Shown piece by piece: positions 6,161 to 47,700 of a stretch of DNA of 64,000 bases. The stretch lies in the NCBI GenBank assembly GCA_963680875.1, contig OY804579.1, positions 31,419,804 to 31,483,803 of the forward strand. The letters are read 5' to 3'. The stretch's first letter is position 1, and every line of letters begins with the position of its first letter. The DNA comes from Bathymodiolus brooksi (taxonomy: Eukaryota; Mollusca; Bivalvia; Mytilida; Modiolidae). The notes beneath the pieces are model-generated. The model was not told the origin of the DNA, did not search any database, and saw nothing but the letters and a program-made list of their open reading frames with translations. Position numbers and translations under genes: made by a program.

Positions 6161-6984
6161 TGGCCATCTTGGATTTCCGATCGGCATAAAAAACAGAAAA
6201 TGTGTAGAGGACCTTCCAATGATCATTCATGGGCAGTTTGGTTTCAATTGTCCAAGTGGTTTCAGAGAAGAAGCGTTTTGAAACATTTTTCCCATAGGGT
6301 CCAATGTTAAACTAAGTCCTGCCGTAGCCGCCATTTTGAATTTCATATCGGAACAAAAAACGTAAAGTTTGTAGAGGACCATCCAATGAACATTCATGTA
6401 CAGTTTGGCTTTAATCATATTTGTAGTTTCTGAGAAGAAGGCATTTGAATATTTTCCCATAGGGTCCAATGTTAATCTATGTCCTGCGGTGGCGGCCATC
6501 TTGGATTTCCGATCGGCATAAAAAACAGAAAATTTGTAGAGGACCTTCCAATGATCATTCCTGGGCAGTTTGGTTTCAATTGTCCAAGTGGTTTCAGAGA
6601 AGAAGCGTTTTGAAACATTTTTCCCATAGGGTCCAATGTTAAACTAAGTCCTGCCGTAGCCACCATTTTGAATTTCATATCGGAACAAAAAACCTTAAGA
6701 TTGTAGAGGACCATCCAATGAACATTCATGTACAGTTTGGCTTTAATCATATTTGTAGTTTCTGAGAAGAAGGCATTTGAACATTTTCCCATAGGGTCCA
6801 ATGTTAATCTATGTATTACGGTGGCGGCCATCTTGGATTTCCGATCGGCATAAAAAACAGAAACTTTGTAGAGGACCTTCCAATGATCATTCCTGGGCAG
6901 TTTGGTTTCAACTGTCCAAGTGGTTTCAGAGAAGAAGCATTTTGAAACATTTTTCCCATAGGGTCCAATGTTAAACTAAGTCCT

Positions 6985-8815: not shown

Positions 8816-11800
8816 CGGCCATCTTAGATTTCCGATCGGCATAAAAAACAGAAAATTTGTAGAGGACCTTCCAATGATCATTCCTGGGCAGTTTGGTTTC
8901 AACTGTCCAAGTGGTTTCAGAGAAAAAGCATTTTGAAACATTTTTCACATAGGGTCCAATGTTAAACTAAGTTCTGCCGTAGCCGCCATTTTGAATTTCA
9001 TACCGGAACAAAAAACCTATAGTTTGTAGAGGGCCATCTAATGAACATTCATGTACAGTTTGGCTTTAATCATATTTGTAGTTTCTGAGAAGAAGGCATT
9101 TGAATATTTTCCCATAGGGTCCAATGTTAATCTATGTCCTGCGGTGGCGGCCATCTTGGATTTCCGATCGGCATAAAAAACAAAAATGTGTAGAGGACCT
9201 TCCAATGATCATTCATGGGCAGTTTGGTTTCAATTGTCCAAGTGGTTTCAGAGAAGAAGCGTTTTGAAACATTTTTCCCATAGGGTCCAATGTTAAACTA
9301 AGTCCTGCCGTAGCCGCCATTTTGAATTTCATATCGGAACAAAAAACGTAAAGTTTGTAGAGGACCATCCAATGAACATTCATGTACAGTTTGGCTTTAA
9401 TCATATTTGTAGTTTCTGAGAAGAAGGCATTTGAACATTTTCCCATAGGGTCCAATGTTAATCTATGTATTACGGTGGCGGCCATCTTGGATTTCCGATC
9501 GGCATAAAAAACAGAAACTTTGTAGAGGACCTTCCAATGATCATTCCAAGTGGTTTCGGAGAAGAAGCATTTTGAAACATAAGTCCTGCCGTAGCCACCA
9601 TTTTGAATTTCATATCGGAACAAAAAACCTTAAGATTGTAGAGGACCATCTAATGAACATTCATGTACAGTTTGGCTTTAATAATATTTGTAGTTTCTGA
9701 GAAGAAGGCATTTGAATATTTTCTCATAGGGTCCAATGTTAATCTATGTATTGCGGTGGTGGCCATCTTGGATTTCCTATCGACATAAAAAACAAAAATT
9801 TTGTAGAGGACCTTCCAATAATCATTCCTGGGCAGTTTGGTTTCAATTGTCCAAGTGGTTTCAGAGAAGAAGCGTTTTGAAACATTTTTCCCATAGGGTC
9901 CAATGTTAAACTAAGTCCTGCCGTAGCCGCCATTTTCAATTTCATATCGGAACAAAAAACGTAAAGTTTGTAGAAGACCATCCAATGAACATTCATGTAC
10001 AGTTTGGCTTTAATCATATTTGTAGTTTCTGAGAAGAAGGCATTTGAACATTTTCCCATAGAGTCCAATGTTAATCTATATATTGCGGTGGCGGCCATCT
10101 TGGATTTCCGATCGACATAAAAAACATAAAATTTGTAGAGGACCTTCCAATGATCATTCCTGGGCAGTTTGGTTTCAATTGTCCAAGTGGTTTCAGAGAA
10201 GAAGCGTTTTGAAACATTTTTCCCATAGGGTCCAATGTTAAACTAAGTCCTGCCGTAGCCGCCATTTTCAATTTCATATCGGAACAAAAAACGTAAAGTT
10301 TGTAGAGGACCATCCAATGAACATTCATGTACAGTTTGGCTTTAATAATATTTGTAGTTTCTGAGAAGAAGGCATTTGAATATTTTCTCATAGGGTCCAA
10401 TGTTAATCTATGTATTGCGGTGGCGGCCATCTTGGATTTCCGATCGACATAAAAAACATAAAATTTGTAGAGGACCTTCCAATGATCATTCCTGGGCAGT
10501 TTGGTTTCAACTGTCCTAGTGGTTTCAGAGAAGAAGCGTTTTGAAACATTTTCCCATAGGGTCCAATGTTAAACTAAGTCCTGCCGTAGCCGCCATTTTG
10601 AATTTCATACCGGAACAAAAAACGTAAAGTTTGTAGAGGACCATCCAATGAACATTCATGTACAGTTTGGTTTTAATCATATTTGTAGTTTCTGAGAAGA
10701 AGGCATTTGAATATTTTCTCATAGGGTCCAATGTTAATCTATGTCCTGCGGTGGCGGCCATCTTGAATTTTCGATCGGCATAAAAAAAACATAAACTTTG
10801 TAGAGGACCTTCCAATGACTATTCCTGGGCAGTTTGGTTTCAATTGTCCAAGTGGTTTCAGAGAAGAAGCGTTTTGAAACATTTTCCCATAGGGTCCAAT
10901 GTTAAACTAAGTCCTGCCGTAGCCGCCATTTTGAATTTCATATCGGAACAAAAAACGTAAAGTTTGTAGAGGACCATCCAATGAACATTCATGTACAGTT
11001 TGGCTTTAATAATATTTGTAGTTTCTGAGAAGAAGGCATTTGAATATTTTCCCATAGGGTCCAATGTTAATCTATGTATTGCGGTGGCGGCCAGCTTGGA
11101 TTTCCGATCGACATAAAAAACATACACTTTGTAGAGGACCTTCCAATGATCATTCCTGGGCAGTTTGGTTTCAACTGTCCTAGTGGTTTCAGAGAAGAAG
11201 CATTTTGAAATATTTTTCCCATAGGGTCCAATGTTAAACTAAGTCCTGCCGTAGCCGCCATTTTTAATTTCATATCGGAACAAAAAACGTAAAGTTTGTA
11301 GAGGACCATCCAATGAACATTCATGTACAGTTTGGCTTTAATCATATTTGTAGTTTCTGAGAAGAAGGCATTTGAACATTTTCCCATAGGGTCCAATGTT
11401 AATCTATGTATTACGGTGGCGGCCATCTTGGATTTCCGATCGGCATAAAAAACAGAAAATTTGTAGAGGACCTTCCAATGATCATTCCTGGGCAGTTTGG
11501 TTTCAACTGTCCAAGTGGTTTCAGAGAAGAAGCATTTTGAAACATTTTTCCCATAGGGTCCAATGTTAAACTAAGTCCTGCCGTAGCCACCATTTTGAAT
11601 TTCATATCGGAACAAAAAACCTTAAGATTGTAGAGGACCATCCAATGAACATTCATGTACAGTTTGGCTTTAATCATATTTGTAGTTTCTGAGAAGAAGG
11701 CATTTGAATATTTTCCCATAGGGTCCAATGTTAATCTATGTATTGTGGTGGTGGCCATCTTGGATTTCCGATCGGCATAAAAAACAGAAAATTTGTAGAG

Positions 11801-12924
11801 GACCTTCCAATGATCATTCCTGGGCAGTTTGGTTTCAACTGTCCTAGTGGTTTCAGAGAAGAAGCGTTTTGAAACATTTTCCCATAGGGTCCAATGTTAA
11901 ACTAAGTCCTGCCGTAGCCGCCATTTTGAATTTCATACCGGAACAAAAAACGTAATTTTTTTAGAGGACCATCTAATGAACATTCATGTACAGTTTGGCT
12001 TTAATAATATTTGTAGTTTCTGAGAAGAAGGCATTTGAATATTTTCTCAAAGGGTCCAATGTCAATCTATGTCCTGCGGTGGCGGCCATCTTGAATTTTC
12101 GATCGGCATAAAAAAAACATAAACTTTGTAGAGGACCTTCCAAAGACTATTCCTGGGCAGTTTGGTTTCAATTGTCCAAGTGATTTCAGAGAAGAAGCGT
12201 TTTGAAACATTTTTCCCATAGGGTCCAATGTTAAACTAAGTCCTGCCGTAGCCGCCATTTTCAATTTCATATCGGAACAAAAAACGTAAAGTTTGTAGAG
12301 GACCATCCAATGAACATTCATGTACAGTTTGGCTTTAATCATATTTGTAGTTTCTGAGAAGAAGGCATTTGAACATTTTCCCATAGGGTCCAATGTTAAT
12401 CTATGTATTGCGGTGGCGGCCATCTTGGATTTCCGATCGACATAAAAAACAAAAATTTTGTAGAGGACCTTCCAATGATCATTCCTGGGCAGTTTGGTTT
12501 CAATTGTCCAAGTGGTTTCAGAGAAGAAGCATTTTGAAACATTTTTCCCATAGGGTCCAATGTTAAACTAAGTCCTGCCGTAGCCGCCATTTTGAATTTC
12601 ATACCGGAACAAAAAAAGTAAAGTTTGTAGAGGACCATCCAATGAACATTCATGTACAGTTTGGCTTTAATCATATTTGTAGTTTCTGAGAAGAAGGCAT
12701 TTGAACATTTTCCCATAGGGTCCAATGTTAATCTATGTCATGCGGTGGCGGCCATCTTGGATTTCCGATCGACATAAAAAACATAAAATTTGTAGAGGAC
12801 CTTCCAATGATCATTCCTGGGCAGTTTGGTTTCAATTGTCCAAGTGGTTTCAGAGAAGAAGCATTTTGAAACATTTTTCCCATAGGGTCCAATGTTAAAC
12901 TAAGACCTGTCGTAGCCGCCATTT

Positions 12925-13443
12925 TGAATTTCATACCGGAACAAAAAACCTAAAGTTTGTAGAGGACCATCTAATGAACATTCATATACAGTTTGGCTTT
13001 AATCATATTTGTAGTTTCTGAGAAGAAGGCATTTGAATATTTTCCCATAGGGTCCAATGTTAATCTATGTCCTGCGGTGGCAGCCATCTTGGATTTCCGA
13101 TCGGCATAAAAAACAGTAACTTTGTAAAGGACATTCCAATGATCATTCATGTACAGTTTAGGTTCAGTCAGTTCATTAGTTTCAGAGAAGAAGATCTTTG
13201 AAATTTCAGCCAATCAGAGCATATTATTGGCCTTGGCAGCCATATTGAATATCCGACTGGAACGAAAAACAGTAACTTTGTAGAGGACCATCCAAGGAAC
13301 ATTCCTGCTAAGTTTGGTTCCAATCGGCCCAGTGGTTTCGGAGAAGAAGCTTGAAATGTGAAAAGTTTACAGACGACAGACAACAGACGACGGACGCCAA
13401 GTGATGGCAATAGTTCACCTGGACCTTTGGTCCAGGTGAACTA
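12925..13443 (-). mobile_element. Terminal module of hairpin-ended element, copy 1
   Basis: After the last regular satellite monomers come two more divergent monomers (with CAGCCATCTTGGATTTCC and CAGCCATATTGAATATCC). A run rich in ACAGACGACAGACAACAGAC follows, and then a perfect hairpin. Read on the minus strand the order is hairpin, GCCATCACTTGGCGTCCGTC, a short CT-rich spacer, and monomers containing CTTCTCCGAAACCACTGGGC. The element at 59,808-61,732 has the same order. This matches a broad class of invertebrate repeats built from a hairpin end plus tandem monomers (compare pearl, HINE or tandem-repeat MITE elements). Assignment to any one of those is inference. Confidence 0.75.
13411..13443. 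other. Terminal hairpin, copy 1
   Basis: This is a perfect palindrome: TAGTTCACCTGGACC, a three-base TTT loop, then GGTCCAGGTGAACTA. It closes the right end of the first satellite-bearing element. Confidence 0.9.
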
Positions 13444-14975
13444 AAATACCAATTAGTCCTATGTAAAAACTATGTCCTGCAGTGAAAGTCATCTTGGAAT
13501 TACGATCAACATAAAAAACACAAAGTTTGTAAAGGACCTTCCAATGATTGATGCATAGTTTAGGTTCAATCAGTGCAATAGCTTCAGAGAAGAAGATATT
13601 TCTGTATTTTCCCGATATGGTCCTGTGTTAATACTATGACCTGTGGTGGCAGCCATCTTGGATTTCCGATCGGCATAAAAAACAGAGGACCTTCCAATGA
13701 TCATTCCTGGGCAGTTTGGTTTCAGAGAAGAAGCGTTTTGAAACATTTTTCCCATAGGGTCCAATGATAAACAAGTCCTGCCGTAGCCGCCATTTTGAAT
13801 TTCATATCAGAACAAAAAACGTAAAGTTTGTAGAGGACCATCCAATGAACATTCATGTACAGTTTGGCTTTAATAATATTTGTAGTTTCTGAGAAGAAGG
13901 CATTTGAACATTTTCCCATAGGGTCCAATGTTAATCTATGTATTACGGTGGCGGCCATCTTGGATTTCCGATCGGCATAAAAAACAGAAAATTTGTAGAG
14001 GACCTTCCAATGATCATTCCTGGGCAGTTTGGTTTCAACTGTCCAAGTGGTTTCAGAGAAGAAGCATTTTGAAACATTTTTCCCATAGGGTCCAATGTTA
14101 AACTAAGTCCTGCCGTAGCCGCCATTTTGAATTTCATATCGGAACAAAAAACCTTAAGATTGTAGAGGACCATCCAATGAACATTCATGTACAGTTTGGC
14201 TTTAATCATATTTGTAGTTTCTGAGAAGAAGGCATTTGAATATTTTCCCATAGGGTCCAATGTTAATCTATGTATTGCGGTGGTGGCCATCTTGGATTTC
14301 CGATCGGCATAAAAAACAGAAACTTTGTAGAGGACCTTCCAATGATCATTCCTGGGCAGTTTGGTTTCAACTGTCCAAGTGGTTTCAGAGAAGAAGCATT
14401 TTGAAACATTTTTCCCATAGGGTCCAATGTTAAACTAAGTCCTGCGGTAGCCGCCATTTTGAATTTCATACCGGAACAAAAAACCTAAAGTTTGTAGAGG
14501 ACCATCTAATGAACATTCATGTACAGTTTGGCTTTAATCATATTTGTAGTTTCTGAGAAGGCATTTGAATATTTTCCCATAGGGTCCAATGTTAATCTAT
14601 GTCCTGCGGTGGCAGCCATCTTGGATTTCCGATCGGCATAAAAAACAGTAACTTTGTAAAGGACATTCCAATGATCATTCATGTACAGTTTAGGTTCAGT
14701 CAGTTCATTAGTTTCAGAGAAGAAGATCTTTGAAATTTCAGCCAATCAGAGCATATTATTGGCCTTGGCAGCCATATTGAATATCCGACTGGAACGAAAA
14801 ACAGTAACTTTGTAGAGGACCATCCAAAGAACATTCCTGCTAAGTTTGGTTCCAATCGGCCCAGTGGTTTCGGAGAAGAAGCTTGAAATGTGAAAAGTTT
14901 ACAGACGACAGACAACAGACGACGGACGCCAAGTGATGGCAATAGTTCACCTGGACCTTTGGTCCAGGTGAACTA
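13444..14975 (-). mobile_element. Second, shorter copy of the satellite-bearing element
   Basis: It begins with two divergent monomers (13,444-13,690, including GTGAAAGTCATCTTGGAATT). It then returns to regular 332-bp satellite dimers and ends with a near-identical copy of the terminal module about 1,534 bp after the first. Small differences, such as a loss of AGAAG near 14,556 and AAGAACATTCC for AAGGAACATTCC, separate the two ends. The arrangement fits a tandem or nested second element, or a block duplication that included the terminus. Confidence 0.7.
14943..14975. other. Terminal hairpin, copy 2
   Basis: It has the same 33-bp palindrome as at 13,411-13,443. Its last bases run directly into the left arm of the foldback element that starts at about 14,978. 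Confidence 0.9.
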
Positions 14976-30394: not shown

Positions 30395-30985
30395 TCAATG
30401 GTTCATGTTGTTCACATGCCAGAGGAATGGTTCATCTTGTTGACTTGCCAGAGTAATGGTTCATGTTGTTCACATGACAGATGAATGGTTCATATTGTTG
30501 ACATGCCAGAGGAATGGTTCATGTTGTTGACATGCCAGAGGAATGGTTCATGTTGTTGACATGCCAGAGGAATGGTTCATGTTGTTGACATGTCAGAGGA
30601 ATGGTTCATGTTGTTGACATGACAGAGGAATGGTTCATGTTGTTGACATACCAGAGGAATGGTTCATGTTGATGACATGTCAGGGGAATGGTTCATGTGG
30701 ATGACATGTCAGGGGAATGGTTCATGTGGTTGACATGCCAGAAATGGTTCATGTTCTTGACATGCCAGAAAAGGTTCATGTTGTTGACATGTCAGAGGAA
30801 TGGTTCATGTTCTTGACATGTCAGAAGAATGGTTCATGTTCTTGACATGCCAGAGGAATGGTTCACATTGTTGACATGCCAGAGGAATGGTTCATGTTCT
30901 TGACATGACAGATGAATGGTTCATGTTGTTGACATGCCAGGGGAATTTTTCATGTTGTTGACATGTCAGAGGAATGGTTCGTGAT
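30395..30985. repeat. 29-bp minisatellite (about 20 copies)
   Basis: The unit contains ATGGTTCATGTTGTTGACAT and GCCAGAGGA, with variants (GTCAG, GACAG, TTCTTG). It lies 5' of the first recognised CEP131 exon, either in an upstream intron or in the 5' flank. Confidence 0.9.
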
Positions 30986-31029
30986 TTGTTGTTGACATGT
31001 TACTTCTCAATGAATTGCAGTTTACAGGT

Positions 31030-32535
31030 GTTTTTGTGTTTTTGTGTTTATTAAAGGATTGTAGCTTATCAATGTTATTTGTGTTTATTAAAGGATTGCA
31101 GCTTATCAATGTTATTTGTGTTTATTAAAGGATTGTAGCTTATCAATGTTATTTGTGTTTATTAAAGGATTGCAGCTTATCAATGTTATTTGTGTTTATT
31201 AAAGGATTGCAGCTTATCAATGTTATTTGTGTTTATTAAAGAATTGTAGCTTATCAATGTTATTTGTGTTTATTAAAGGATTGCAGCTTATCAATGTTAT
31301 TTGTGTTCATTAAAGGATTGTAGCTTATCAATGTTATTTGTGTTTATTAAAGGATTGTAGCTTATCAATGTTATTTGTGTTTATTAAAGGATTGTAGCTT
31401 ATCAATGTTATTTGTGTTTATTAAAGGATTGCAGCTTATCAATGTTATTTTTGTTTATTAAAGGATTGTAGCTTATCAATGTTATTTGTGTTTATTAAAG
31501 GATTGTAGCTTATCAATGTTATTTGTGTTTATTAAAGGATTGCAGCTTATCAATGTTATTTGTGTTTATTAAAGGATTGCAGCTTATCAATGTTATTTGT
31601 GTTTATTAAAGGATTGCAGCTTATCAATGTTATTTGTGTTTATTAAAGGATTGTAGCTTATCAATGTTATTTGTGTTTATTAAAGGATTGCAGCTTATCA
31701 ATGTTATTTGTGTTTATTAAAGGATTGCAGCTTATCAATGTTATTTGTGTTTATTAAAGGATTGTAGCTTATCAATGTTATTTGTGTTTATTAAAGGATT
31801 GCAGCTTATCAATGTTATTTGTGTTTATTAAAGGATTGCAGCTTATCAATGTTATTTGTGTTTATTAAAGGATTGTAGCTTATCAATGTTATTTGTGTTT
31901 ATTAAAGGATTGTAGGTTATCAATGTTATTTGTGTTTATTAAAGGATTGCAGCTTATCAATGTTATTTGTGTTTATTAAAGGATTGCAGCTTATCAATGT
32001 TATTTGTGTTTATTAAAGGATTGCAGCTTATCAATGTTATTTGTGTTTATTAAAGGATTGCAGCTTATCAAGTTATTTGTGTTTATTAAAGGATTGTAGC
32101 TTATCAATGTTATTTGTGTTTATTAAAGGATTGTAGCTTATCAATGTTATTTGTGTTTATTAAAGGATTGCAGCTTATCAATGTTATTTGTGTTTATTAA
32201 AGGATTGCAGCTTATCAATGTTATTTGTGTTTATTAAAGGATTGCAGCTTATCAAGTTATTTGTGTTTATTAAAGGATTGTAGCTTATCAATGTTATTTG
32301 TGTTTATTAAAGGATTGTAGCTTATCAATGTTATTTGTGTTTATTAAAGGATTGTAGCTTATCAATGTTATTTGTGTTTATTAAAGGATTGCAGCTTATC
32401 AATGTTATTTGTGTTTATTAAAGGATTGCAGCTTATCAATGTTATTTGTGTTTATTAAAGGATTGTAGCTTATCAATGTTATTTGTGTTTATTAAAGGAT
32501 TGCAGCTTATCAATGTTATTTGTGTTTATCAATAG
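31030..32535. repeat. 38-bp minisatellite (about 39 copies)
   Basis: The unit contains TTTGTGTTTATTAAAGGATT then GCAGCTTATCAATGTTAT. The main variation is a C/T switch (GCAGC or GTAGC). At least two copies have lost TG (ATCAAGTTATT). It ends about 145 bp before the acceptor of the first recognised CEP131 exon. Confidence 0.95.
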
Positions 32536-32679
32536 ATTGCAGTTTATTTGTGATTATAAAAAAAACATAGAGAGGATTTTGAAAATAGACACAATTTCAT
32601 AGTATAGTAATTTTACAAAGAAATTAATATAAGTTTAAACCTTCACATTATAATGTAGTTCATTACTTGGTAATTACAG

Positions 32680-32808
32680 ATTTTAGACATGTCATCTAGA
32701 AGTCACAAAGATGATTTAAATCTCAGTCTTACTGGATCACAGATATCTTCTAAATCTAGATCCCTCCACAGGCCAAGTTCTGTTACAGATGTCAGGACAT
32801 CTAAAGGA
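32680..32808 (+). CDS. CEP131: CEP131 exon with first candidate start codon
   Basis: The acceptor is TTACAG (ends 32,679) and the donor is GGA|GTAAGT, phase 0. From the ATG at 32,689 it reads [16 protein letters not shown], a Ser-rich stretch, then [18 protein letters not shown] following a short acidic segment matches the N-terminus of vertebrate CEP131. The last ~45 bases and the donor are the evident source of the tandem arrays that follow. Confidence 0.82.
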
Positions 32809-35800
32809 GTAAGTATTTCTGTGTTTTGGACCCCTCCACAGTTACAGTTGTTAGAACATGTAAAGGAGTAAGGACTTAGCTGTCATCTGTATACTTGAAT
32901 GTTTTAGACCCTTCACAGCCCATGTTCTGTTACAGTTGTCAGAACATTTAAAGGAGTGAGTACTAAGTTGTCATCTGTATACTTGAGTATGGTAGATCTC
33001 CCACAAGACCAGGTTATGTTACAATTGTCAGAACATGTAAAGGAATGAGTACTAAGTTGTCATCTATATACTTGAGTATGGTAGATCTCCCACAAGACCA
33101 GGTTCTGTTACAGTTGTCAGAACATGTAAAGGAGTGAGTACTAAGTTGTCATCTGTATACTTGAGTGTAGTAGATCTCCCACAAGACCAGGTTATGTTAC
33201 AGTTGTCAGAATATGTAAAGGAGTGAGTACTAAGTTGTCATCTGTATACTTGTGTATGGTAGATCTCTCACAAGACCATGTTCTGTTACAGTTGTCAGAA
33301 CATGTAAAGGAGTGAGTACTAAGTTGTCATCTGTATACTTGAATATGGTAGATCTCCCACAAGACCAGGTTCTGTTACAGTTGTCAGAACATGTAAAGGA
33401 GTGAGTACTAAGTTGTCATCTGTATACTTGAGTGTGGTAGATCTCCCACAAGACCAGGTTATGTTACAGTTGTCAGAACATGTAAAGGAGTGAGTACTAA
33501 GTTGTCATCTGTATACTTGAGTGGTAGATCTCCCACAAGACCAGGTTTCGTTAAAGTTGTCAGAACATGTAAAGGAGTGAGTACTAAGTTGTCATCTGTA
33601 TACTTGAGTGTAGTAGATCTCCCACAAGACCAGGTTATGTTACAGTTGTCAGAATATGTAAAGGAGTGAGTACTAAGTTGTCATCTGTATACTTGTGTAT
33701 GGTAGATCTCTCACAAGACCATGTTCTGTTACAGTTGTCAGAACATGTAAAGGAGTGAGTACTAAGTTGTCATCTGTATACTTGAGTATGGTAGATCTCC
33801 CACAAGACCAGGTTCTGTTACAATGGTCAGAACATGTAAAGGAGTGAGTACTGAGTTGTCATTTGTATACTTGAGTATGATAGATCTCGCACAAGACCAG
33901 GTTCTGTTACAGTTGTCAGAACATGTAAAGGAGTGAGTATTAAGTTGTCATCTGTATACTTGAGTATGGTAGATCTTGTACAAGACCAGGTTATGTTACA
34001 ATTGTCAGAACATGTAAAGGAGTGAGTACTAAGTTGTCATCTGTATACTTGAGTATGGTAGATCTCCCACAGGACCAGGTTCTGTTACAGTTGTCAGAAC
34101 ATGTAAAGGAGCGAGTACTAAGTTGTCATCTGTATACTCGAGTATGGTAGATCTCCCACAAGACCAGGTTCTGTTACAATTGTCAGAACCTGTAAAGGAG
34201 TGGGTACTAAGTTGTCATTTGTATACTTGAGTATGGTAGATCTCCCACAAGACCAGGTTCTGATACAGTTGTCAGAACATGTAAAGGAGTGAGTACTAAG
34301 TTGTCATCTGTATACTTGAGTATGGTAGATCTCCCACAAGACCAGGTTCTGTTACAGTTGTCAGAACATGTAAAGGAGTGAGTAAGGTAGATCTCCCACA
34401 AGACCAAGTTCTGTTACAGTTGTCAGAACATATAAAGGAGTGAGTACTAAGTTGTCATCTGTATACTTGAGTATGGTAGATCTCCCACAAGACCAGGTTC
34501 TGTTACAGTTGTCAGAACATGTAAAGGAGTGAGTACTTAGTTGTCATCTGTATTCTTGAGTATGGTAGATCTCCCACAAGACCAGGTTCTGTTATAGTTG
34601 TCAGAACATGTAAAGTAGTGAGTACTAAGTTGTCATCTGTATACTTGAGTATGGTAGATCTCCCACAAGACCAGGTTCTGTTATAGTTGTCAGAACATGT
34701 AAAGGAGTGAGTACTAAGTTGTCATCTGTATACTTGAGTATGATAGATCTCCCACAGGACCAGGTTCTGTTATAGTTGTCAAAACATGTAAAGGAGAGAG
34801 TACTAAGTTGTCATCTGTATACTTGAATATGGTAGATCTCCCACAAGACCAGGTTCTGTTACAATTGTCAGAACATGTAAAGGAGTGAGTACTAAGTTGT
34901 CATCTGTATACTTGAGTATGGTAGATCTCCCACAAGACCAGGTTCTGTTACAATTGTCAGAACATGTAAAGGAGTGAGTACTAAGTTGTCATTTGTATAC
35001 TTGAGTATGGTAGATCTCGCACAAGACCAGGTTCTGTTACAGTTGTCAGAACATGTAAAGGAGTGAGTATTAAGTTGGCATCTGTATACTTGAGTATGGT
35101 AGATCTTGTACAAGACCAGGTTATGTTACAAGTGTCAGAATATGTAAAGGAGTGAGTACTAAGTTGTCATTTGTATACTTGAGTATGGTAGATCTTGCAC
35201 AAGACCAGGTTCTTTTACAATTGTCAGAACATGTAAAGGAGTGAGTACTAAGTTGTCATCTGTATACTTGAGTATGGCAGATCTCCCACAAGACCAGGTT
35301 CTGTTACAATTGTCAGAACATGTAAAGTAGTGAGTACTAAGTTGTCATCTGTAGTGTATACTTGAGTATGGTAGATCTCGCACAAGACCAGGTTCTGTTA
35401 CAGTTGTCAGAACATGTAAAGGAGTGAGTACTAAGTTGTCATCTGTATACTTGAGTATGGTAGATCTTCCACAAGACCAGGTTATGTTACAGTTGTCAGA
35501 ACATGTAAAGGAGTGAGTACTAAGTTGTCATCTGTATACTTGAGTATGGTAGATCTCCCACAAGACTAGGTTCTGTTACAGTTGTCAGAACATGTAAAGG
35601 AGTGAGTACTAAATTGTCATCTGTATACTTGAGTATGGTAGATCTCCCACAAGACCAGGTTTTGTTACAGTTTTCAGAACATGTAAAGGAGCGAGTACTA
35701 AGTTGTCATCTGTATACTTGAGTATGGTAGATCTCGCACAAGGCCAGGTTCTGTTACAGTTGTTAGAACATGTAAAGGAGTGAGTACTAAGTTGTCATCT

Positions 35801-38800
35801 GTATACTTGAGTATGGTAGATCTCCCACAAGACCAGGTTCTTTTACAGTTGTCAGAACATGTAATGGAGTGAGTACTAAGTTGTCATCTGTATACTTGAG
35901 TATGGTAGATCTCACACAAGACCAGGTTCTGTTACAGTTGTCAGAACATGTAAAGGAGTGAGTACTAAGTTGTCATCTGTATACTTGAGTATGGTAGATC
36001 TCCCACAAGACCAGGTTCTGTTACAGTTGTCAGAACATGTAAAGGAATGAGTAAGGTAGATCTCCCACAAGACCAAGTTCTGTTACAGTTGTCAGAACAT
36101 GTAAAGGAGTGAGTACTAAGTTGTCATCTGTATACTTGAGTATGGTAGATCTCCCACAAGACCAGGTTCTGTTACAGTTGTCAGAACATGTAAAGGAGTG
36201 AGTACTTAGTTGTCATCTGTATTCTTGAGTATGGTAGATCTCCCACAAGACCAGGTTCTGTTTTATTTGTCAGAACATGTAAAGGAGCGAGTACTAAGTT
36301 GTCATCTGTATACTTGAGTATGGTAGATCTCCCACAAGACCAGGTTCTGTTATAGTTGTCAGAACATGTAAAGGAGTGAGTACTAAGTTGTCATCTGTAT
36401 ACTTGAGTATGGTAGATCTCCCACAGGACCAGGTTCTGTTATAGTCGTCAAAACATGTAAAGGAGAGAGTACTAAGTTGTCATCTGTATACTTGAATATG
36501 GTAGATCTCCCACAAGACCAGGTTCTGTTACAATTGTCAGAACATGTAAAGGAGTGAGTACTAAGTTGTCATCTGTATACTTGAGTATGGTAGATCTCCC
36601 ACAAGACCAGGTTCTGTTACAATTGTCAGAACATGTAAAGGAGTGAGTACTAAGTTGTCATCTGTATACTTGAGTATGGTAGATCTCCCACAGGACCAGG
36701 TTCTGTTACAGTTGTCAGAACATGTAAAGGAGCGAGTACTAAGTTGTCATCTGTATACTCGAGTATGGTAGATCTCCCACAAGACCAGGTTCTGTTACAA
36801 TTGTCAGAACATGTAAAGGAGTGGGTACTAAGTTGTCATTTGTATACTTGAGTATGGTAGATCTCCCACAAGACCAGGTTCTGTTACAATTGTCAGAACA
36901 TGTAAAGTAGTGAGTACTAAGTTGTCATCTGTAGTGTATACTTGAGTATGGTAGATCTCGCACAAGACCAGGTTCTGTTACAGTTGTCAGAACATGTAAA
37001 GGGGTGAGTACTAAGTTGTCATCTGTATACTTGAGTATGGTAGATCTCCCACAAGACTAGGTTCTGTTACAGTTGTCAGAACATGTAAAGGAGCGAGTAC
37101 TAAGTTGTCATCTGTATACTTGAGTATGGTAGATCTCCCACAAGACCAGGTTCTGTTACAGTTGTCAGAACATGTAAAGGAGTGAGTACTAAATTGTCAT
37201 CTGTATACTTGAGTATGATAGATCTCCCACAAGACCAGGTTCTGTTACAGTTTTCAGAACATGTAAAGGAGCGAGTACTAAGTTGTCATCTGTATACTTG
37301 AGTATGGTAGATCTCGCTCAAGGCCAGGTTCTGTTACAGTTGTTAGAACATGTAAAGGAGTGAGTACTAAGTTGTCATCTGTATACTTGAGTATGGTAGA
37401 TCTCCCACAAGACCAGGTTCTGTTACAGTTGTCAGAACATGTAAAGGAGTGAGTACTAAGTTGTCATCTGTATACTTGAGTATGGTAGATCTCCCACAAG
37501 ACCAGGTTCTGTTACAATTGTCAGACCATGTAAAGGAGTGAGTACTAAGTTGTCATCTGTATACTTGAGTATGGTAGATCTCGCACAAGACCAGGTTCTG
37601 TTACAGTTGTCAGAACATGTAAAGGGGTGAGTACTAAGTTGTCATCTGTATACTTGAGTATGGTAGATCTCCCACAAGACTAGGTTCTGTTACAATTGTC
37701 AGAACATGTAAAGGAGTGAGTACTAAGTTGTCATCTGTATACTTGAGTATGGTAGATCTCCCACAAGACCAGGTTCTGTTACAGTTGTCAGAACATGTAA
37801 AGGAGTGAGTACTAAGTTGTCATCTGTATACTTGAGTATGGTAGATCTCCCACAGGACCAGGTTCTGTTACAGTTGTCAGAACATGTAAAGGAGCGAGTA
37901 CTAAGTTGTCATCTGTATACTCGAGTATGGTAGATCTCCCACAAGACCAGGTTCTGTTACAATTGTCAGAACCTGTAAAGGAGTGAGTACTAAATTGTCA
38001 TTTGTATACTTGAGTATGGTAGATCTTGCACAAGACCAGGTTCTTTTACAATTGTCAGAACATGTAAAGGAGTGAGTACTAAGTTGTCATCTGTATACTT
38101 GAGTATGGCAGATCTCCCACAAGACCAGGTTCTGTTACAATTGTCAGAACATGTAAAGGAGTGAGTACTAAGTTGTCATCTATATACTTGAGTATGGTAG
38201 ATCTCCCACAAGACCAGGTTCTGTTATAGTTGTCAAAACATGTAAAGGAGAGAGTACTAAGTTGTCATCTGTATACTTGAATATGGTAGATCTCCCACAA
38301 GACCAGGTTCTGTTACAATTGTCAGAACATGTAAAGGAGTGAGTACTAAGTTGTCATCTGTATACTTGAGTATGGTAGATCTCCCACAAGACCAGGTTCT
38401 GTTACAATGGTCAGAACATGTAAAGGAGTGAGTACTAAGTTGTCATCTGTATACTTGAGTATGGTAGATCTCGCACAAGACCAGGTTCTGTTACAGTTGT
38501 CAGAACATGTAAAGGAGTGAGTATTAAGTTGTCATCTGTATACTTGAGTATGGTAGATCTTGTACAAGACCAGGTTATGTTACAACTGTCAGAACATGTA
38601 ATGGAGTGAGTACTAAGTTGTCATTTGTATACTTGAGTATGGTAGATCTCCCACAAGACCAGGTTCTGTTACAGTTGTCAGAACATATAAAGGAGTGAGT
38701 ACTAAGTTGTCATCTGTATACTTGAGTATGGTAGATCTCCCACAAGACCAGGTTCTGTTACAGTTGTCAGAACATGTAAAGGAGTGAGTACTAAGTTGTC

Positions 38801-41800
38801 ATTTGTATACTTGAGTATGGTAGATCTCCCACAAGACCAGGTTCTGTTACAGTTGTCAGAACATGTAAAGGAGTGAGTATGGTAGATCTCCCACAAGACC
38901 AAGTTCTGTTACAGTTATCAGAACATGTAAAGGAGTGAGTACTAAGTTGTCATCTGTATGCTTGAGTATGGTAGATCTTGCACAAGACCAGGTTATGTTA
39001 CAGTTGTCAGAACATATAAAGGAGTGAGTACTAAGTTGTCATCTGTATACTTGAGTATGGTAGATCTCCCACAGGACCAGGTTCTGTTATAGTTGTCAGA
39101 ACATGTAAAGGAGCGAGTACTAAGTTGTCATCTGTATACTTGAGTATGGTAGATCTCCCACAAGACCAGGTTATGTTACAGTTGTCAGAACATGTAAAGG
39201 AGTGAGTACTAAGTTGTCATCTGTATACTTGAGTATGGTAGATCTCGCACAAGACCAGGTTCTGTTACAGTTGTCAGAACATGTAAAGGAGTGAGTACTA
39301 AGTTGTCATCTGTATACTTGAGTGTGGTAGATCTCCCACAAGACCAGGTTCCGTTAAAGTTGTCAGAACATGTAAAGGAGTGAGTACTAAGTTGTCATCT
39401 GTATACTTGAGTGTGGTAGATCTCTCACTAGACCATGTTCTGATACAGATATCAGGACTTATAATAAAGGAGTACAAAGTATTATATATCTGTGGTTTAG
39501 ACCCCTGCTATCACCCAGGTTCTGTTACAATTGGCAGAGCATGCGTATACTTATATATTTATTTAACCACCACGATATAACTGAAATATTTTTGAAGGTG
39601 GCATTAAACACCATAACCCTCACCCTATATATTTAAAGACGCCCTCCTCAGACCAAGTTCCGTGACAAAAGTCAGAACATCCAAAGGAGTAAATACATTT
39701 GTGGTTTAGACCCTACCACAGACCAAGTTCTGTGACAAAGTCAGAACATCCAGAGGAGTAAATACATTTGTAGTTTAGACCCTACCACAAACCAAGTTCT
39801 GTGACAAAGTCAGAACATCCAAAGGAGTAAATACATTTGTGGTTTAGACCCTACCACAAACCAAGTTCTGTGACAAAGTCACAATATCCAGAGGAGTAAA
39901 TACATTTGTGGTTTAGACCCTACCACAGACCAAGTTCTGTGACAAAGTCAGAATATCCAGAGGAGTAAATACATTTGTAGTTTAGACCCTACCACAGACC
40001 AAGTTCTGTGACAAAGTCAGAACATCCAAAGGAGTCAATACATTTGTGGTTTAGACCCTACCACAGACCAAGTTCTGTGACAAAGTCAGAACATCCAAAG
40101 GAGTAAATACATGTGTGGTTTAGACCCTACCACAGACAAAGTTCTGTGACAAAGTCAGAACATCCAGAGGAGTCAATACATTTGTGGTTTAGACCCAACC
40201 ACAGACCAAGTTCTGTGACAAAGTCAGAACATCCAGAGGAGTAAATACATTTGTAGTTTAGACCCAACCACAGACCAAGTTCTGTGACAAAGTCAGAACA
40301 TCCAAAGGAGTAAATACATTTGTAGTTTAGACCCAACCACAGACCAAGTTCTGTGACAAAGTCAGAACATCCAGAGGAGTAAATACATTTGTAGTTTAGA
40401 CCCTACCACAGACCAAGTTCTGTGACAAAGTCAGAACATCCAAAGGAGTAAATACATTTGTGGTTTAGACCCTACTACAGACCAAGTTCTGTGACAAAAG
40501 TCAGAACATCCAAAGGAGTAAATACATTTGTGGTTTAGACCCTACCACAGACCAAGTTCTGTGACAAAGTCAGAACATCCAAAGGAGTAAATACATTTTG
40601 GTTTAGACCCTACCACAGACCAAGTTCTGTGACAAAGTCAGAACATCCAGAGGAGTAAATACATTTGTGGTTTAGATCCTACCACAGACCAAGTTCTGTG
40701 ACAAAGTCAGAACATCCAGAGGAGTAAATACATTTGTAGTTTATACCCAACCACAGACCAAGTTCTGTGACAAAGTCAGAATATCCAGAGGAGTAAATAC
40801 ATTTGTAGTTTAGACCCTACCACAGACCAAGTTCTGTGACAAAGTCAGAACATCCAAAGGAGTCAATACATTTGTAGTTTAGACCCTACCACAGACCAAG
40901 TTCTGTGACAAAGTCAGAACATCCAAAGGAGTAAATACATTTGTGGTTTAGACCCTACCACAGACAAAGTTCTGTGACAAAGTCAGAACATCCAGAGGAG
41001 TCAATACATTTGTGGTTTAGACCCAACCACAGACCAAGTTCTGTGACAAAGTCAGAACATCCAAAGGAGTAAATACATTTGTAGTTTAGACCCAACCACA
41101 GACCAAGTTCTGTGACAAAGTCAGAACATCCAGAGGAGTAAATACATTTGTAGTTTAGACCCTACCACAGACCAAGTTCTGTGACAAAGTCAGAACATCC
41201 AAAGGAGTAAATACATTTGTGGTTTAGACCCTACCACAGACAAAGTTCTGTGACAAAGTCAGAACATCCAGAGGAGTCAATACATTTGTGGTTTAGACCC
41301 AACCACAGACCAAGTTCTGTGACAAAGTCAGAACATCCAAAGGAGTAAATACATTTGTAGTTTAGACCCAACCACAGACCAAGTTCTGTGACAAAGTCAG
41401 AACATCCAGAGGAGTAAATACATTTGTAGTTTAGACCCTACCACAGACCAAGTTCTGTGACAAAGTCAGAACATCCAAAGGAGTAAATACATTTGTGGTT
41501 TAGACCCTACCACAGACCAAGTTCTGTGACAAAAGTCAGAACATCCAAAGGAGTAAATACATTTGTGGTTTAGACCCTACCACAGACCAAGTTCTGTGAC
41601 AAAGTCAGAACATCCAAAGGAGTAAATACATTTTGGTTTAGACCCTACCACAGACCAAGTTCTGTGACAAAGTCAGAACATCCAGAGGAGTAAATACATT
41701 TGTGGTTTAGATCCTACCACAGACCAAGTTCTGTGACAAAGTCAGAACATCCAGAGGAGTCAATACATATGTAGTTTAGACCCTACCACAGACCAAGTTC

Positions 41801-44680
41801 TGTGACAAAGTCAGAACATCCAAAGGAGTAAATACATTTGTGGTTTAGACCCTACCACAGACCAAGTTCTGTGACAAAGTCAGAACATCCAAAGGAGTAA
41901 ATACATTTGTAGTTTAGACCCTACTACAGACCAAGTTCTGTGACAAAGTCAGAATATCCAGAGGAGTAAATACATTTGTGGTTTAGACCCTACCACAGAC
42001 CAAGTTCTGTGACAAAGTCAGAACATCCAAAGGAGTAAATACATTTGTGGTTTAGACCCTACCACAGACCAAGATCTGTGACAAAGTCAGAACATCCAGA
42101 GGAGTAAATACATTTGTAGTTTATACCCAACCACAGACAAAGTCAGAACATCCAGAGGAGTAAATACATTTGTGGTTTAGACCCAACCACAGACCAAGTT
42201 CTGTGACAAAGTCAGAACATCCAGAGGAGTAAATACATTTATGGTTTAGACCCTACCACAGACCAAGTTCTGTGACAAAGTCAGAACATCCAAAGGAGTA
42301 AATACATTTGTGGTTTAGACCCTACCACAGACCAAGTTCTGTGACAAAGTCAGAACATCCAAAGGAGTAAAAAAACATTTGTAGTTTAGACCCAACCACA
42401 GACCAAGTTCTGTGACAAAGTCAGAACATCCAGAGGAGTAAATACATTGTAGTTTATACCCAACCACAGACCAAGTTCTGTGACAAAGTCAGAACATCCA
42501 GAGGAGTAAATACATTTGTGGTTTAGACCCAACCACAGACCAAGTTCTGTGACAAAGTCAGAACATCCAGAGGAGTAAATACATTTGTGGTTTAGACCCT
42601 ACCACAGACCAAGTTCTGTGACAAAGTCAGAACATCCAAAGGAGTAAATACATTTGTGGTTTAGACCCTACCACAGACCAAGTTCTGTGACAAAGTCAGA
42701 ACATCCAAAGGAGTAAATACATTTGTGGTTTAGACCCTACCACAGACCAAGATCTGTGACAAAGTCAGAACATCCAGAGGAGTAAATACATTTGTAGTTT
42801 ATACCCAACCACAGACCAAGTTCTGTGACAAAGTCAGAACATCCAAAGGAGTAAATACATTTGTGGTTTAGACCCTACCACAGACCAAGTTCTGTGACAA
42901 AGTCAGAACATCCAGAGGAGTAAATACATTTGTGGTTTAGACCCTACCACAGACCAAGTTCTGTGACAAAGTCAGAACATCCAGAGGAGTAAATACATTT
43001 GTGGTTTAGACCCTACCACAGACCAATTTCTGTGACAAAGTCAGAACATCCAGAGGAGTAAATACATTTGTAGTTTAGACCCTACCACAGACCAAGTTCT
43101 GTGACAAAGTCAGAACATCCAAAGGAGTAAATACATTTGTGGTTTAGACCCTACCACAGACCAAGTTCTGTGACAAAGTCAGAACATCCAAAGGAGTAAA
43201 TACATTTGTAGTTTAGACCCTACCACAGACCAAGTTCTGTGACAAAGTCAGAATATCCAGAGGAGTAAATACATTTGTGGTTTAGACCCTACCACAGACC
43301 AAGTTCTGTGACAAAGTCAGAACATCCAAAGGAGTAAATACATTTGTGGTTTAGACCCTACCACAGACCAAGATCTGTGACAAAGTCAGAACATCCAGAG
43401 GAGTAAATACATTTGTAGTTTATACCCAACCACAGACAAAGTCAGAACATCCAGAGGAGTAAATACATTTGTGGTTTAGACCCAACCACAGACCAAGTTC
43501 TGTGACAAAGTCAGAACATCCAGAGGAGTAAATACATTTGTGGTTTAGACCCTACCACAGACCAAGTTCTGTGACAAAGTCAGAACATCCAAAGGAGTAA
43601 AAAAACATTTGTAGTTTAGACCCAACGACAGACCAAGTTCTGTGACAAAGTCAGAACATCCAGAGGAGTAAATACATTGTAGTTTATACCCAACCACAGA
43701 CCAAGTTCTGTGACAAAGTCAGAACATCCAGAGGAGTAAATACATTTGTGGTTTAGACCCTACCACAGACCAAGTTCTGTGACAAAGTTAGAACATCCAA
43801 AGGAGTAAATACATTTGTGGTTTAGACCCTACCACAGACCAAGTTCTGTGACAAAGTCAGAACATCCAGAGGAGTAAATACATTTGTGGTTTAGACCCTA
43901 CCACAGACCAAGTTCTGTGACAAAGTTAGAACATCCAAAGGAGTAAATACATTTGTGGTTTAGACCCTACCACAGACCAAGTTCTGTGACAAAGTCAGAA
44001 TATCCAGAGGAGTAAATACATTTGTAGTTTAGACCCTACCACAGACCAAGTTCTGTGACAAAGTCAGAACATCCAAAGGAGTAAATACATGTGTGGTTTA
44101 GACCCTACCACAGACCAAGTTCTGTGACAAAGTCAGAACATCCAGAGGAGTAAATAGATTTGTGTTTAAACCCCTCATCAGACCAAGTTTTGTTCAGGGA
44201 CTCATTTCTATGTTACATAGACAACTACATTTGTATTTTCTTATCTATCTTAGTATCTATAATTGATTATTTTCTTTACAGGATGTTCATAAATCTCAAA
44301 CAACTACTAAAAAGAGGAATTCTGTTCAAGGTAAGAGTATAATAATGTTCTCAATAGATCAAGTTGAGAAATATCATAATGTAGTTGCCAGTTCATAAAG
44401 AATAAAAACAAAACCAGAAATCTTAACTGTGACAAAGTTTTGAATAATTAAACCTTGGTAAAGTTTCTAAGGAGAGGCATTAATATAATCATATTTTTGT
44501 AATTATGACATTCTCATTAACAACACTTCTTTGGTCAGTACTTCTCAATACAAAGAACATATTTGCATAAAAGACATGTGAGCTTGGACATCCATTGTTC
44601 ACAGACATTTTGTATTTTTTATATTTTCTTATGATACCACAGGACCAGTGTAAACCAAGCATTTTAGAGATGGTCCTCTT

Positions 44681-44718
<38 letters not shown>

Positions 44719-47700
44719 TTAAATAGCACTTTGAATTTCTCTGCCCCCAGAGTAACTCAATATAAGATGTAAAAATATCTTCATAAGCTGAAAAGTTAAA
44801 TCTTTAAATATTTTAAGTGATATGTTCTAAAATTTATAATAAGATGTAGGGGCCATTGTGATCGTGATTGTATGGTAGTTGGATTGATAGCTACCTATCT
44901 ATGCATGTGATCATGATTGCATGATAGTTGGATTTATAACTAGCTATCTATGCACGTGATCGTGATTGCATGGTAGTTGGATTTATAGCTACCTATCAAT
45001 GCACGTGATCGTGATTGCATGGTAGTTCGATTTATAGCTACCTATCTTTGCACGTGATCGTGATTGCATGGTAGTTTGATTTATAGCTACCTATCTATGC
45101 ATGTGATCGTGATTGCATGGTAGTTGGATTTATAGCTACCTATGCAATCAGTGCCTATCACCACTAGCGTCGTGAGTTTGAACCCCGCTCAGGCGAGGTG
45201 TACTCAATACAACATTATGTGATAAAGTTTGTCAGTGACTTGCGGCAGTTCTGTGGTTTTCTCCGCTTTCCTCCACCAATAAAACTGACCGCCACGATAT
45301 AGCTGAAATATTATTGAAAGTGGCGTTAAACACAGTAAACCAACCTAATCCTATAATAAGATAAATGAAGTTAATATTAGTTGTTAATTATTATTTCAGG
45401 AATATTTATTTGTGAAATTTGAAATGTGTGAATTTTTGCAGATTATGTAAGTTAAGGCTATAGTATATTAATAGAAATTCAATTATGATATTTTGTTTGA
45501 AACCATTGTGCCAGTCAATGCCAGAAAAAGGTACTTCCCTATCGTATCTTCTACCAATTTTGGATGATATTACTTTTACTATATAAATCTTGAAAATATC
45601 TGTAACCCAAGCCCTTCATAAATACATATAGGATATCATATATATATGTATATGTTTTCTTCAATGTTTCTGTAAACAAACAATAAGAAGGAGTCAAAAG
45701 TTAATACTGTACTATTTGTATATAAACAGGATTAGATGGTCTAAGTCAAAGGAGTGATGCCTCTTCAGCTCGTAAGAAAAGTTCCAGGAAACCAGGAAGA
45801 TCTCCAAGGTAGTGTTTAAAACAAATTGTATTTAAATGAATTGTTCATTGATGGCAGTAACAAGAGACTGCATTTTATAGAAGTGGTTGTCATGGAAACA
45901 ATAAAGTTGATTTCTGCCCTTCATTCCACTGTAAGGCCATGAATTATTTGATTCCATCCCGTGGCCAGGTGTACTTATGGTGCATTTCCTGTACCATTTA
46001 ACGAATGTATTTACCAATTGCTCAATGAATATTGATCAACTGGTATTTAAACTTCCTCTCTGATGAAATTTCCTTGATTTTATTTCAAGTTGAAAAATTT
46101 CTTCATTGGAATTTATTTCTTTCGTATAATTGGCATTATGCATATGAAAAATAATTATTCTTTTCTAATTTGATGAATAAATGCAATTACATTTATTCGC
46201 TTTTTGGTTTGTAATTTTTTTATTTTTTTTATAGACATTTCATCTTGTATACTATATATTTTGAGTTAAAAAAATCTGTAAATATTTGCTCGAGTTTGTA
46301 TATAGTATACAAGATGAAATATCTATAAATAAAAAAAATACAAAATTAAATCCAATTTTTAATAAATTTCCCCCCCTATTTTCAGAGTCGCCAAATGGAC
46401 TATAAACTATGTAAATATCTGCATTATGGATACTGCATCTTCCCAAGTCGAAGTGTTTTCGATCTGCTTGTTCTCCCCACAAACAGATGGTGAACACAAG
46501 CAGATAAAAAACACTTGACTTGTGAAGATGTGATACAGTGGATCCTTGTGTGGACTATCAATTTCACCTTCATGGTTAAAAAGCTTAATGAACTTTCATT
46601 TTATTTTTAGTTATCCAGATTATAGTAAACCAGATTCAACTGCATCTTATATATAATGTCAGGGATATAAACTTGGCAAAAATATGGAATTTGGTCATTG
46701 GTACATGAAATCAGTATTTTGCAATATTATGCAAATTTGAATATTGTATACATACATGTACTATATCCATATCTAGATATTGTTATTTTGAAAATGAGCA
46801 ATTCACAAAACATTAGTTTCCATATCTGCATGGATTCCAAATATAAAAGAAGAAAAAAGGGAAAATATAAATGTTAGAAAAATGTTTATCAGCTATCTAA
46901 ATTAAAAACAATGGGAGTTATTTCTCAAATTAGGAAAAGATTATAATATGATATATATATACCATTATACAGTGCTTGTTTTCAGGTATATGAAAGAAAG
47001 ATAATCATTCTAATGAAGTAATTTTTATACCCCCGCTCCCCGAAGGGGGAGGGGGGTATACTGTTTTACGTCTGTCCGTCCTTCCGTCCGTCCAAGATAT
47101 TTTTCGTCACACTTTTCTCAGTTACTCTTGATGGCAGAAATCTGATATTTGGTCACAAGCGTCATATAGGTATACCATATTGTGGGTAGCGTTTTTGGAC
47201 CCGTCAGATTCCTACTTCCTGTTTGCCGACTTAGTTGGTTTTTATACACATTGAACATATATGCACATTTTTCTCAGCAACTATTGATGGCAGAGATCTG
47301 ATATTTGGTCACAAGCTTCATATAGGTACCCCATATCGTGGGAAGCGTTTTTGGACCCATCAGTTTCCTACTTCCTGTTTGCCGAAGAGCGGGGGTATCA
47401 TAAGTGAGAATTAGCTCACAGTTCATCTTGTTCAATTTGAAATAACATCAAAGAAGTTTCATCAGAGAGAAATTTTTCATCAGGAAAGAAGTTTAAACAC
47501 AGTTCCTATTGTTCATTGATTGCCCAACAATAGGAACTTGATTTCTCAACAATACAAACTTTAACTTTTTCTGACCAACACCAATGTGACTTCTAGGAGT
47601 TTAAATACCAGTTGGTCAATATTCATTGAGCAATTGTAATATATACATTCGTTAAATGGTACAGGAAATGCACCATAATACAATCTTATTTGATAAAGTT

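Follow-up and report, generated by a model that had tools for sequence, protein, structure and literature searches.

A minisatellite filling an intron of CEP131 in Bathymodiolus brooksi was probably seeded by the end of the preceding exon and its splice donor

From where does a tandem repeat that occupies almost a whole intron take its first unit? The question is raised by the CEP131 gene of the bivalve Bathymodiolus brooksi, parts of which lie in a stretch of 64,000 nucleotides (positions 31,419,804 to 31,483,803 of contig OY804579.1, assembly GCA_963680875.1), below called the window and supplying the coordinates used here. The intron between exons 2 and 3 of this gene (32,809-44,281; 11,473 bp) is filled with tandem arrays of 89-bp and 69-bp units. 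An earlier note, made from the sequence of the window alone, had proposed that these arrays were seeded by the 3' end of the neighbouring exon together with its splice donor. The analysis supports this proposal, and the array is very probably an exon-seeded intronic minisatellite.

The host gene is CEP131, as the note had named it. This is shown by exon-by-exon alignment, first with a human sequence and then with Mytilus edulis CEP131 (P0002) and an unnamed transcript (P0003). The protein joined from the exons of the present gene is 72% identical to P0002, and its identity to P0003 is 93% over 76% of the query. Exon 2 (32,680-32,808, + strand, 129 bp) was placed by tblastn with residues 1-42 of P0002, at 83% identity, and its acceptor and donor were read; it has a start codon at 32,689 and ends in phase 0. 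Exon 3 (44,282-44,330, + strand) was likewise placed by tblastn and its splice sites were read. The edges of the CEP131 exons are in general those given by tblastn, and some of them, e.g., in exons 4, 5, and 8, miss the splice site or were not placed. A region search for further N-terminal CEP131 orthologs passed two of 23 candidates, both known already.

To count the units, a profile of the 58-bp core shared by exon end, 89-mer and 69-mer, which were its seeds, was searched over the whole window. It marks 145 places, all on the + strand and all inside 32,758-44,194, and no unit copies outside this interval. One place is the exon end itself (32,758-32,815) and the other 144, close to the roughly 140 that had been estimated, follow after it, with 76 starts before 39,500 and 68 after. 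The homology was first put at about 45 exonic bases and the first intronic ones; the alignment is real, and its extent is now refined to the last 51 exonic bases and ~19 intronic ones, donor included. The seed segment is accordingly 32,758-32,827 (+ strand; core profile and alignment), with the last 51 bp of exon 2, the first 19 bp of the intron, and the donor GTAAGT at 32,809-32,814. The 69/70-bp period begins within exon 2, where CCCTCCACAG stands at 32,762 and again at 32,832, and from this it follows that the exon end is unit 1 of the array.

The units that come after unit 1 are all on the + strand. Two transitional copies adjoin the exon at 32,828-32,905 and 32,906-32,993, where such copies had been noticed before, as judged by alignment. 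They are followed by 73 units of the 89-bp family (32,994-39,417), with mostly GTGAGT at the donor place, by two decayed edge copies (39,418-39,543; core profile and alignment), by an interruption unrelated to the unit (39,544-39,641), and by 67 units of the 69-bp family (39,642-44,195), with mostly GTAAAT at the donor place. The last of these is included though incomplete, since it is broken off at about 44,195. The families were delimited by Tandem Repeats Finder (TRF), core profile, and unit count; TRF itself reports the 89-bp array, in segments, at 32,841-39,455 and the 69-bp array at 39,642-44,193. The intronic part of the 89-bp unit is ~20 bp longer than that of the 69-bp unit. The edge copy at 39,418 retains exon states that were lost inside the array, with ACAGAT.TCAGGAC as in the exon. 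By coordinates, the repeat extends from 32,809 to about 44,195 with an unrelated interruption of ~98 bp, and makes up about 98% of the intron. What remains is a non-repeat tail of 86 bp (44,196-44,281, + strand, read from the sequence) with a polypyrimidine tract and the acceptor TTTTCTTTACAG, so that the acceptor of exon 3, at 44,280-44,281, lies about 85 bp past the last repeat unit.

Is the likeness between exon and units greater than chance would give? When profiles of the units that did not contain the exon were searched against the window with the array masked, the exon end was the sole significant match, with E=1.2e-10 for the 89-bp and 7.2e-10 for the 69-bp unit, and the runner-up matches had E=1.2 and 0.74, respectively. 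Searches of the 2.0-Gb genome skipped very common words, scored only the best candidates, and kept one to four candidate regions at first look, and are therefore not exhaustive. Within these limits, the exon region has 11 matches, i.e., itself and ten in the array (the best with E=6.2e-9 and 87% over 59 bp), and the matches listed for the 89-bp unit (78) and for the 69-bp unit (66) are all in the CEP131 intron. The occurrence of the same repeat at unrelated loci, which the earlier note had named as evidence that would speak against its proposal, is in this way absent from the listed matches of both units. A tree was built with the exon as one tip from 71 distinct ~58-bp cores, with duplicates and two poor cores (starts 39,500 and 44,168) left out. 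In this tree the 69-bp clade (ultrafast bootstrap 98) is separated by the exon from the 89-bp side (97), and the copy at 32,828, which adjoins the exon, joins next to it. The exon is hence closer to the units than expected by chance, and its place is between the two families.

The direction of copying can be read from the conservation of the exon and from what the units have retained. The exon end encodes a peptide that is conserved in P0002 and nearly so in the transcript P0001, and weaker forms of it (RPNS.TDV and alike) occur in proteins labelled as coming from the molluscs Sinanodonta, Potamilus, Haliotis, and Liolophura; as coding sequence, the exon end is therefore old. Translation in the exon frame is still possible for some 69-bp units, as at 41,502-41,552 (82%, E=0.012 against Mytilus CEP131), and most 69-bp units have a one-base deletion that shifts this frame. 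Some 69-bp units retain the ancestral P where the present exon 2 has S, and the first transitional copy reads CCC CTC CAC, as Mytilus PLH, also with the proline kept. From the conserved coding sequence of the exon end, taken together with the proline codon retained in 69-bp units, it follows that copying went from exon to array.

The same architecture can be sought at other exons. Besides exon 2 of CEP131, left out because the finding itself had selected it, 93 exons were examined: 13 of CEP131 (exons 3-15), 60 kinase exons, and 20 myosin exons. The kinase exons were hand-picked from 137 listed matches, where long single-frame matches and most members of duplicated clusters were skipped, and the myosin exons are 20 of 80 listed matches. 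An array across the donor is present at 8 of these 93 exons, in 7 independent cases and with 2 to 21 copies, when the paralogous loci L114 and L115 are counted as two, both here and among the 80 kinase and myosin exons, and as one in the collapsed test below. The claim that such an array is unusual is not supported within this genome.

At L051, the exon ends with VAGVSHM and the donor GTAGGT, and a 44-bp unit is present in 18 copies; at L057, the exon end is GTPGYQAPEIIDGQSYDDK, the donor GTAAGG, and the 80-bp unit has 21 copies; at L109, the exon end is ELKLADFG, the donor GTAAGT, and the 39-bp unit has at least 18.5 copies. L106 has 2.1 copies of a 53-bp unit, L114 has 2.9 copies of a 76-bp unit, its paralog L115 has at least 6.8 copies, and L105 has two decayed copies, the first at a shift of 72 bp. 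The eighth case is CEP131 exon 9 (68,205-68,390, beyond the window end, in L039), the last ~25 bp of which recur together with the donor and ~21 intron bases at 68,581 (87%) and 68,455 (81%), and more faintly at 68,634. CEP131 has in this way a second, decayed donor-spanning array at 68,455-68,661, after exon 9, and among its 14 exons there are donor-side copies at two and acceptor-side copies at none. The arrays of L051, L105, and CEP131 exon 9 show partial decay or interruption of their copies. Since the seven exons other than CEP131 exon 9 match a kinase or myosin profile, the direction is again from exon to array. A further candidate, L093, was dropped: its repeat match overlaps a hidden Markov model (HMM) match by 19 nt, but starts after the true exon end at about 858.

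Ordered by number of copies, the cases form a growth series of about 2 (L106; L088), 2.9 (L114), at least 6.8 (L115), 18 (L051), at least 18.5 (L109), and 21 (L057). L088 is one of three paralogs of L057 (L087-L089) that were viewed outside the 80 exons; two of them have long arrays across the 1.5 kb read and L088 has exactly two copies, which, to judge from the sequence, is a snapshot of the first step. The four kinase paralogs L057, L087, L088, and L089 (contig C3, 20.8-21.5 Mb) all have the exon-end duplication in common. In L109, positions 780-1500 of the gene strand hold a CDK-like exon ending with DFG and then the 39-bp array, which runs past the end of the region; for the ~90 bases that were translated, the array has no stop in the exon frame and gives KYETGELKLADFG repeats.

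Do arrays cross the two ends of an exon equally often? In this small and hand-picked sample from one genome, hand-checked crossings are found at 7 of 80 donors and 0 of 80 acceptors (Fisher P=0.014). The numbers become 6/79 versus 0/79 when the myosin paralogs are collapsed (P=0.028), and 8/93 versus 0/93 when CEP131 exons 3-15 are added (P=0.0067). An acceptor match in L083 had been dropped by hand, as it overlaps by 61 nt an HMM match that runs through an intron with stops, the true exon start being at about 712. A stricter automatic test, with splice sites chosen by motif, gives 6/71 donors versus 1/70 acceptors (P=0.12); L051 escapes this test, and L083 is included in it although the acceptor chosen there falls in the intron. 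The donor-side bias is suggestive, not settled. At donors, TRF arrays cover about 6% of the last 40 exon bases, 6-8% of the first intron bases, and 10-14% of the deeper intron. At acceptors, they cover 0-0.9% of the first 40 exon bases versus 3.8-4.8% of the 100 bases upstream, and self-BLAST, not corrected for L083, covers 1.2-1.6% inside the exon versus 5.0-5.3% outside. Since the coverage at the donor side is not above that of the intron, donors look permeable rather than hot, and acceptors look like a barrier. A 160-bp intronic array in L052 (1-563) has a last copy that stops at the acceptor AG, with zero exon bases.

On the simplest reading, these introns often undergo tandem duplication, which is tolerated where it crosses a donor and purged where it crosses an acceptor. 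A donor is short, and an acceptor, with its branch point, its tract, and the AG, takes up about 40 bases. The donor would be contained wholly in each copy, and the first copy would retain its full exon context. The acceptor signal is longer than the intronic part of most units; the complete signal would therefore be outermost after a duplication, and exon copies would pass into the messenger RNA. The alternative that arrays cross donors by mutational bias, for example because copying is tied to transcription or splicing, and not by selection, would also account for crossings at donors only, as they appear after the hand check. Such a bias is unlikely when the last 40 exon bases have a TRF coverage that does not exceed that of the intron and when coverage at acceptors falls from outside to inside the exon; moreover, the automatic test gives only P=0.12. 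The reading of tolerated donor and purged acceptor crossings can be extended to a general, directional growth of introns. The 5' splice sites of this bivalve genome would then be transparent and the 3' splice sites opaque to the birth of tandem arrays, with the 3' end and donor of about one exon in twelve copied in tandem into the following intron, from a single duplication up to 144 copies. This would work since the original exon, with its compact donor, keeps the first place undamaged, while acceptor crossing pushes exon copies into the messenger RNA. We put this generalisation forward tentatively, as a real possibility that falls somewhat short of an even chance.

Several observations weigh against a single seeding by the exon followed by neutral growth. 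The supports in the tree rest on cores of ~58 bp. AGATC is common to exon and 89-bp family, and AGACC is indicated by the 69-bp family, the exon-adjacent copies, and the orthologous proteins; this conflict requires parallel change, a second seeding, or gene conversion, and therefore counts against a single clean seeding. Most donor copies at L115 (GTAAGA) look stronger than the donor of the exon itself (GTACGA). Variation in the 69-bp family is lower at the donor hexamer than elsewhere in the unit (2.1% versus 4.1%). Finally, in-frame stretches between AG and donor, unexpected for either family, are open in both of them: among the parsed 69-bp units, 56 of 58 are open over 36 nt (54 after a true AG), and among the parsed 89-bp units, all 39 are open over 57 nt that follow TTGAG.

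These open stretches would also be expected if the array were functional, with its copies tuning the splicing of CEP131 either as decoy donors or as a reservoir of in-frame mini-exons. The same can be said of the donor hexamers, which at the expected place read GTGAGT in 54 of 71 parsed copies of the 89-bp region and GTAAAT in 58 of 66 of the 69-bp region (7 of the 145 units, without recognisable core end, are left out of these counts). In the 89-bp family, however, the donor hexamer varies by 3.2% on average, compared with 4.2% for the rest of the unit, and the T of GT by 15%; in the 69-bp family the GT is invariant, and so are many other positions. Constraint on the donor thus shows hardly any sign in the 89-bp family and is ambiguous in the 69-bp family. 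Donor-like sites occur in the array at 5.4 per kb, compared with 2.3, 2.8, 4.4, and 5.4 per kb in four other stretches of the window. The array is thus no richer in such sites than the richest of these stretches, and a decoy-donor function was rejected for this reason. Furthermore, when scored with a weight matrix, only 4 of the 1,279 GT/GC sites in the intron match or beat the real donor. The 36-nt and 57-nt stretches share the frame that the exon has where it reaches its donor, and inheritance of the exon frame together with homogenisation would yield open stretches without selection; therefore no function is read into them. On balance, a function of the array is improbable.

Homology alone is symmetric, and one may also let the exon be the recipient, so that a pre-existing satellite gave exon 2 a new 3' end and donor. 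This was rejected, since it is contradicted by the exon-end peptide, which is conserved in Mytilus and recognisable across molluscs. The listed genome matches of the units are at one locus only, and the copied exon ends of the parallel cases hold conserved kinase sequence (the DFG and APE motifs) that is unlikely to be captured repeat; the capture is therefore very improbable. More improbable still, and likewise rejected, is a transposable element or dispersed repeat that resembles the exon end by chance, for which one could invoke the dispersed-repeat-like stretch that interrupts the array, but in the genome search, which was not exhaustive, the listed matches of the exon region and of both units are at this locus only.

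Seeding of the array by the exon can be described as a sequence of steps. A tandem duplication of ~69 bp across the donor between exon 2 and intron 2 would have put a second exon end and donor into the intron, with the original exon and donor still first in line and the first donor presumably the one in use. Unequal exchange or replication-based copying may then have grown the two families of 69 bp and 89 bp. The earlier note had suggested slippage from the exon, which may have been the mechanism; a first duplication of 69 bp with later growth of the array fits the data. By these events a short intron of roughly 105 bp, i.e., the non-repeat remainder plus one intronic seed, would have been enlarged to 11.5 kb. 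The copies would leave the transcript when the intron is removed, and most likely they lack a function of their own; the birth of such a neutral minisatellite across a 5' splice site may be tolerated since it does not displace the original exon and donor from the first place. Events of this kind recur, at different stages, at other exons of the genome. The existing intron appears, from its sequence, to have grown from its own 5' boundary, and the parallel cases suggest an ordinary but overlooked way of intron growth.

A minisatellite repeats a unit of roughly 10-100 bp head to tail until it measures 0.5 to tens of kb, and the 89-bp and 69-bp arrays, with their 11.4 kb, agree with this in unit size and tandem extent. 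Like minisatellites and intronic variable-number tandem repeats, the present arrays have head-to-tail units (39-89 bp), long-range internal similarity, and truncated and decayed edges; unlike them, they have an identified seed, which is conserved coding sequence with a splice donor, and the array starts inside the exon. Classical satellite DNA has many arrays genome-wide and a transposable element has dispersed copies, while the matches listed here, in a search that was not exhaustive, are all at one locus. In tandem exon duplication, exonic sequence is also copied beside itself, but each copy is complete with acceptor and donor; here the units comprise only the 3' end of the exon, about 51 bp of the 129-bp exon 2, without its acceptor. 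Neither does the locus resemble an intron gained from a tandem array, with both splice sites in the copies, since the donor is in unit 1 and the acceptor beyond the array. We propose a class of donor-spanning exon-end arrays with the exon as unit 1, to which CEP131 exon 2 belongs together with L051, L057, L105, L106, L109, L114, L115, and CEP131 exon 9.

Zhuo and colleagues reportedly described, in PNAS in 2007, introns born from tandem duplication of splice-site-bearing sequence. Such duplication is a recognised route of intron gain (PMC2891723, Drosophila); it shares with the present case the duplicated splice site and differs in that new introns arise with both splice sites from the duplicated sequence, while here the acceptor is outside the array. 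In human genes within segmental duplications, internal tandem repeats at exon-intron boundaries have been associated with 27 intron modifications (PMC2812944); that report gives them as 30-bp units times four on average and discusses them as a source of new introns and of alternative splicing among recent paralogs. There, as here, expansion of a minisatellite at an exon-intron boundary alters gene structure; unlike there, an intron is here enlarged, the copies number up to 144, and the donor is the shared element. Donor-spanning exon-end arrays as a recurrent class, or in bivalves, were not found in titles and abstracts of the open-licence literature, which is weak evidence of absence, and passages of a satellite review (PMC5615363) have nothing on them.

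There are other repeats in and around the locus. The interruption at 39,544-39,641 (+ strand, read from the sequence) looks like a dispersed repeat with a tail like ...CCACGATATAACTGAAATAT..., similar in L083, L074, and L106, and an element at 44,858-45,143 that appears to be related to it is built internally of 49-bp tandem units. Arrays of 29 bp and 37 bp (30,397-32,547), in the intron directly upstream of exon 2, have no match among the CEP131 exons tested. Another CEP131 intron has a 155-bp array with 11.5 copies at 59,889-61,677, and the first 14.7 kb of the window (1-14,735) is a large array with a period of 165/332 bp.

What does an array of this kind mean for the genes that carry it? 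Introns gain a concrete and polarised route of growth that draws on the sequence of the gene itself, and the intermediate stages can be seen in a single genome. The question of how a donor is chosen in splicing when near-identical donors, with much exonic context in common, follow each other within 40-90 bp becomes testable. Gene models and short-read mapping may misplace exon ends of this type, and annotation should be made with corresponding caution. If donors are indeed transparent and acceptors opaque, such loci would be a natural experiment in which the spliceosome has to select one of dozens of near-identical donors, and if the asymmetry is genome-wide, it would be an evolutionary measure of which end of an exon tolerates duplication.

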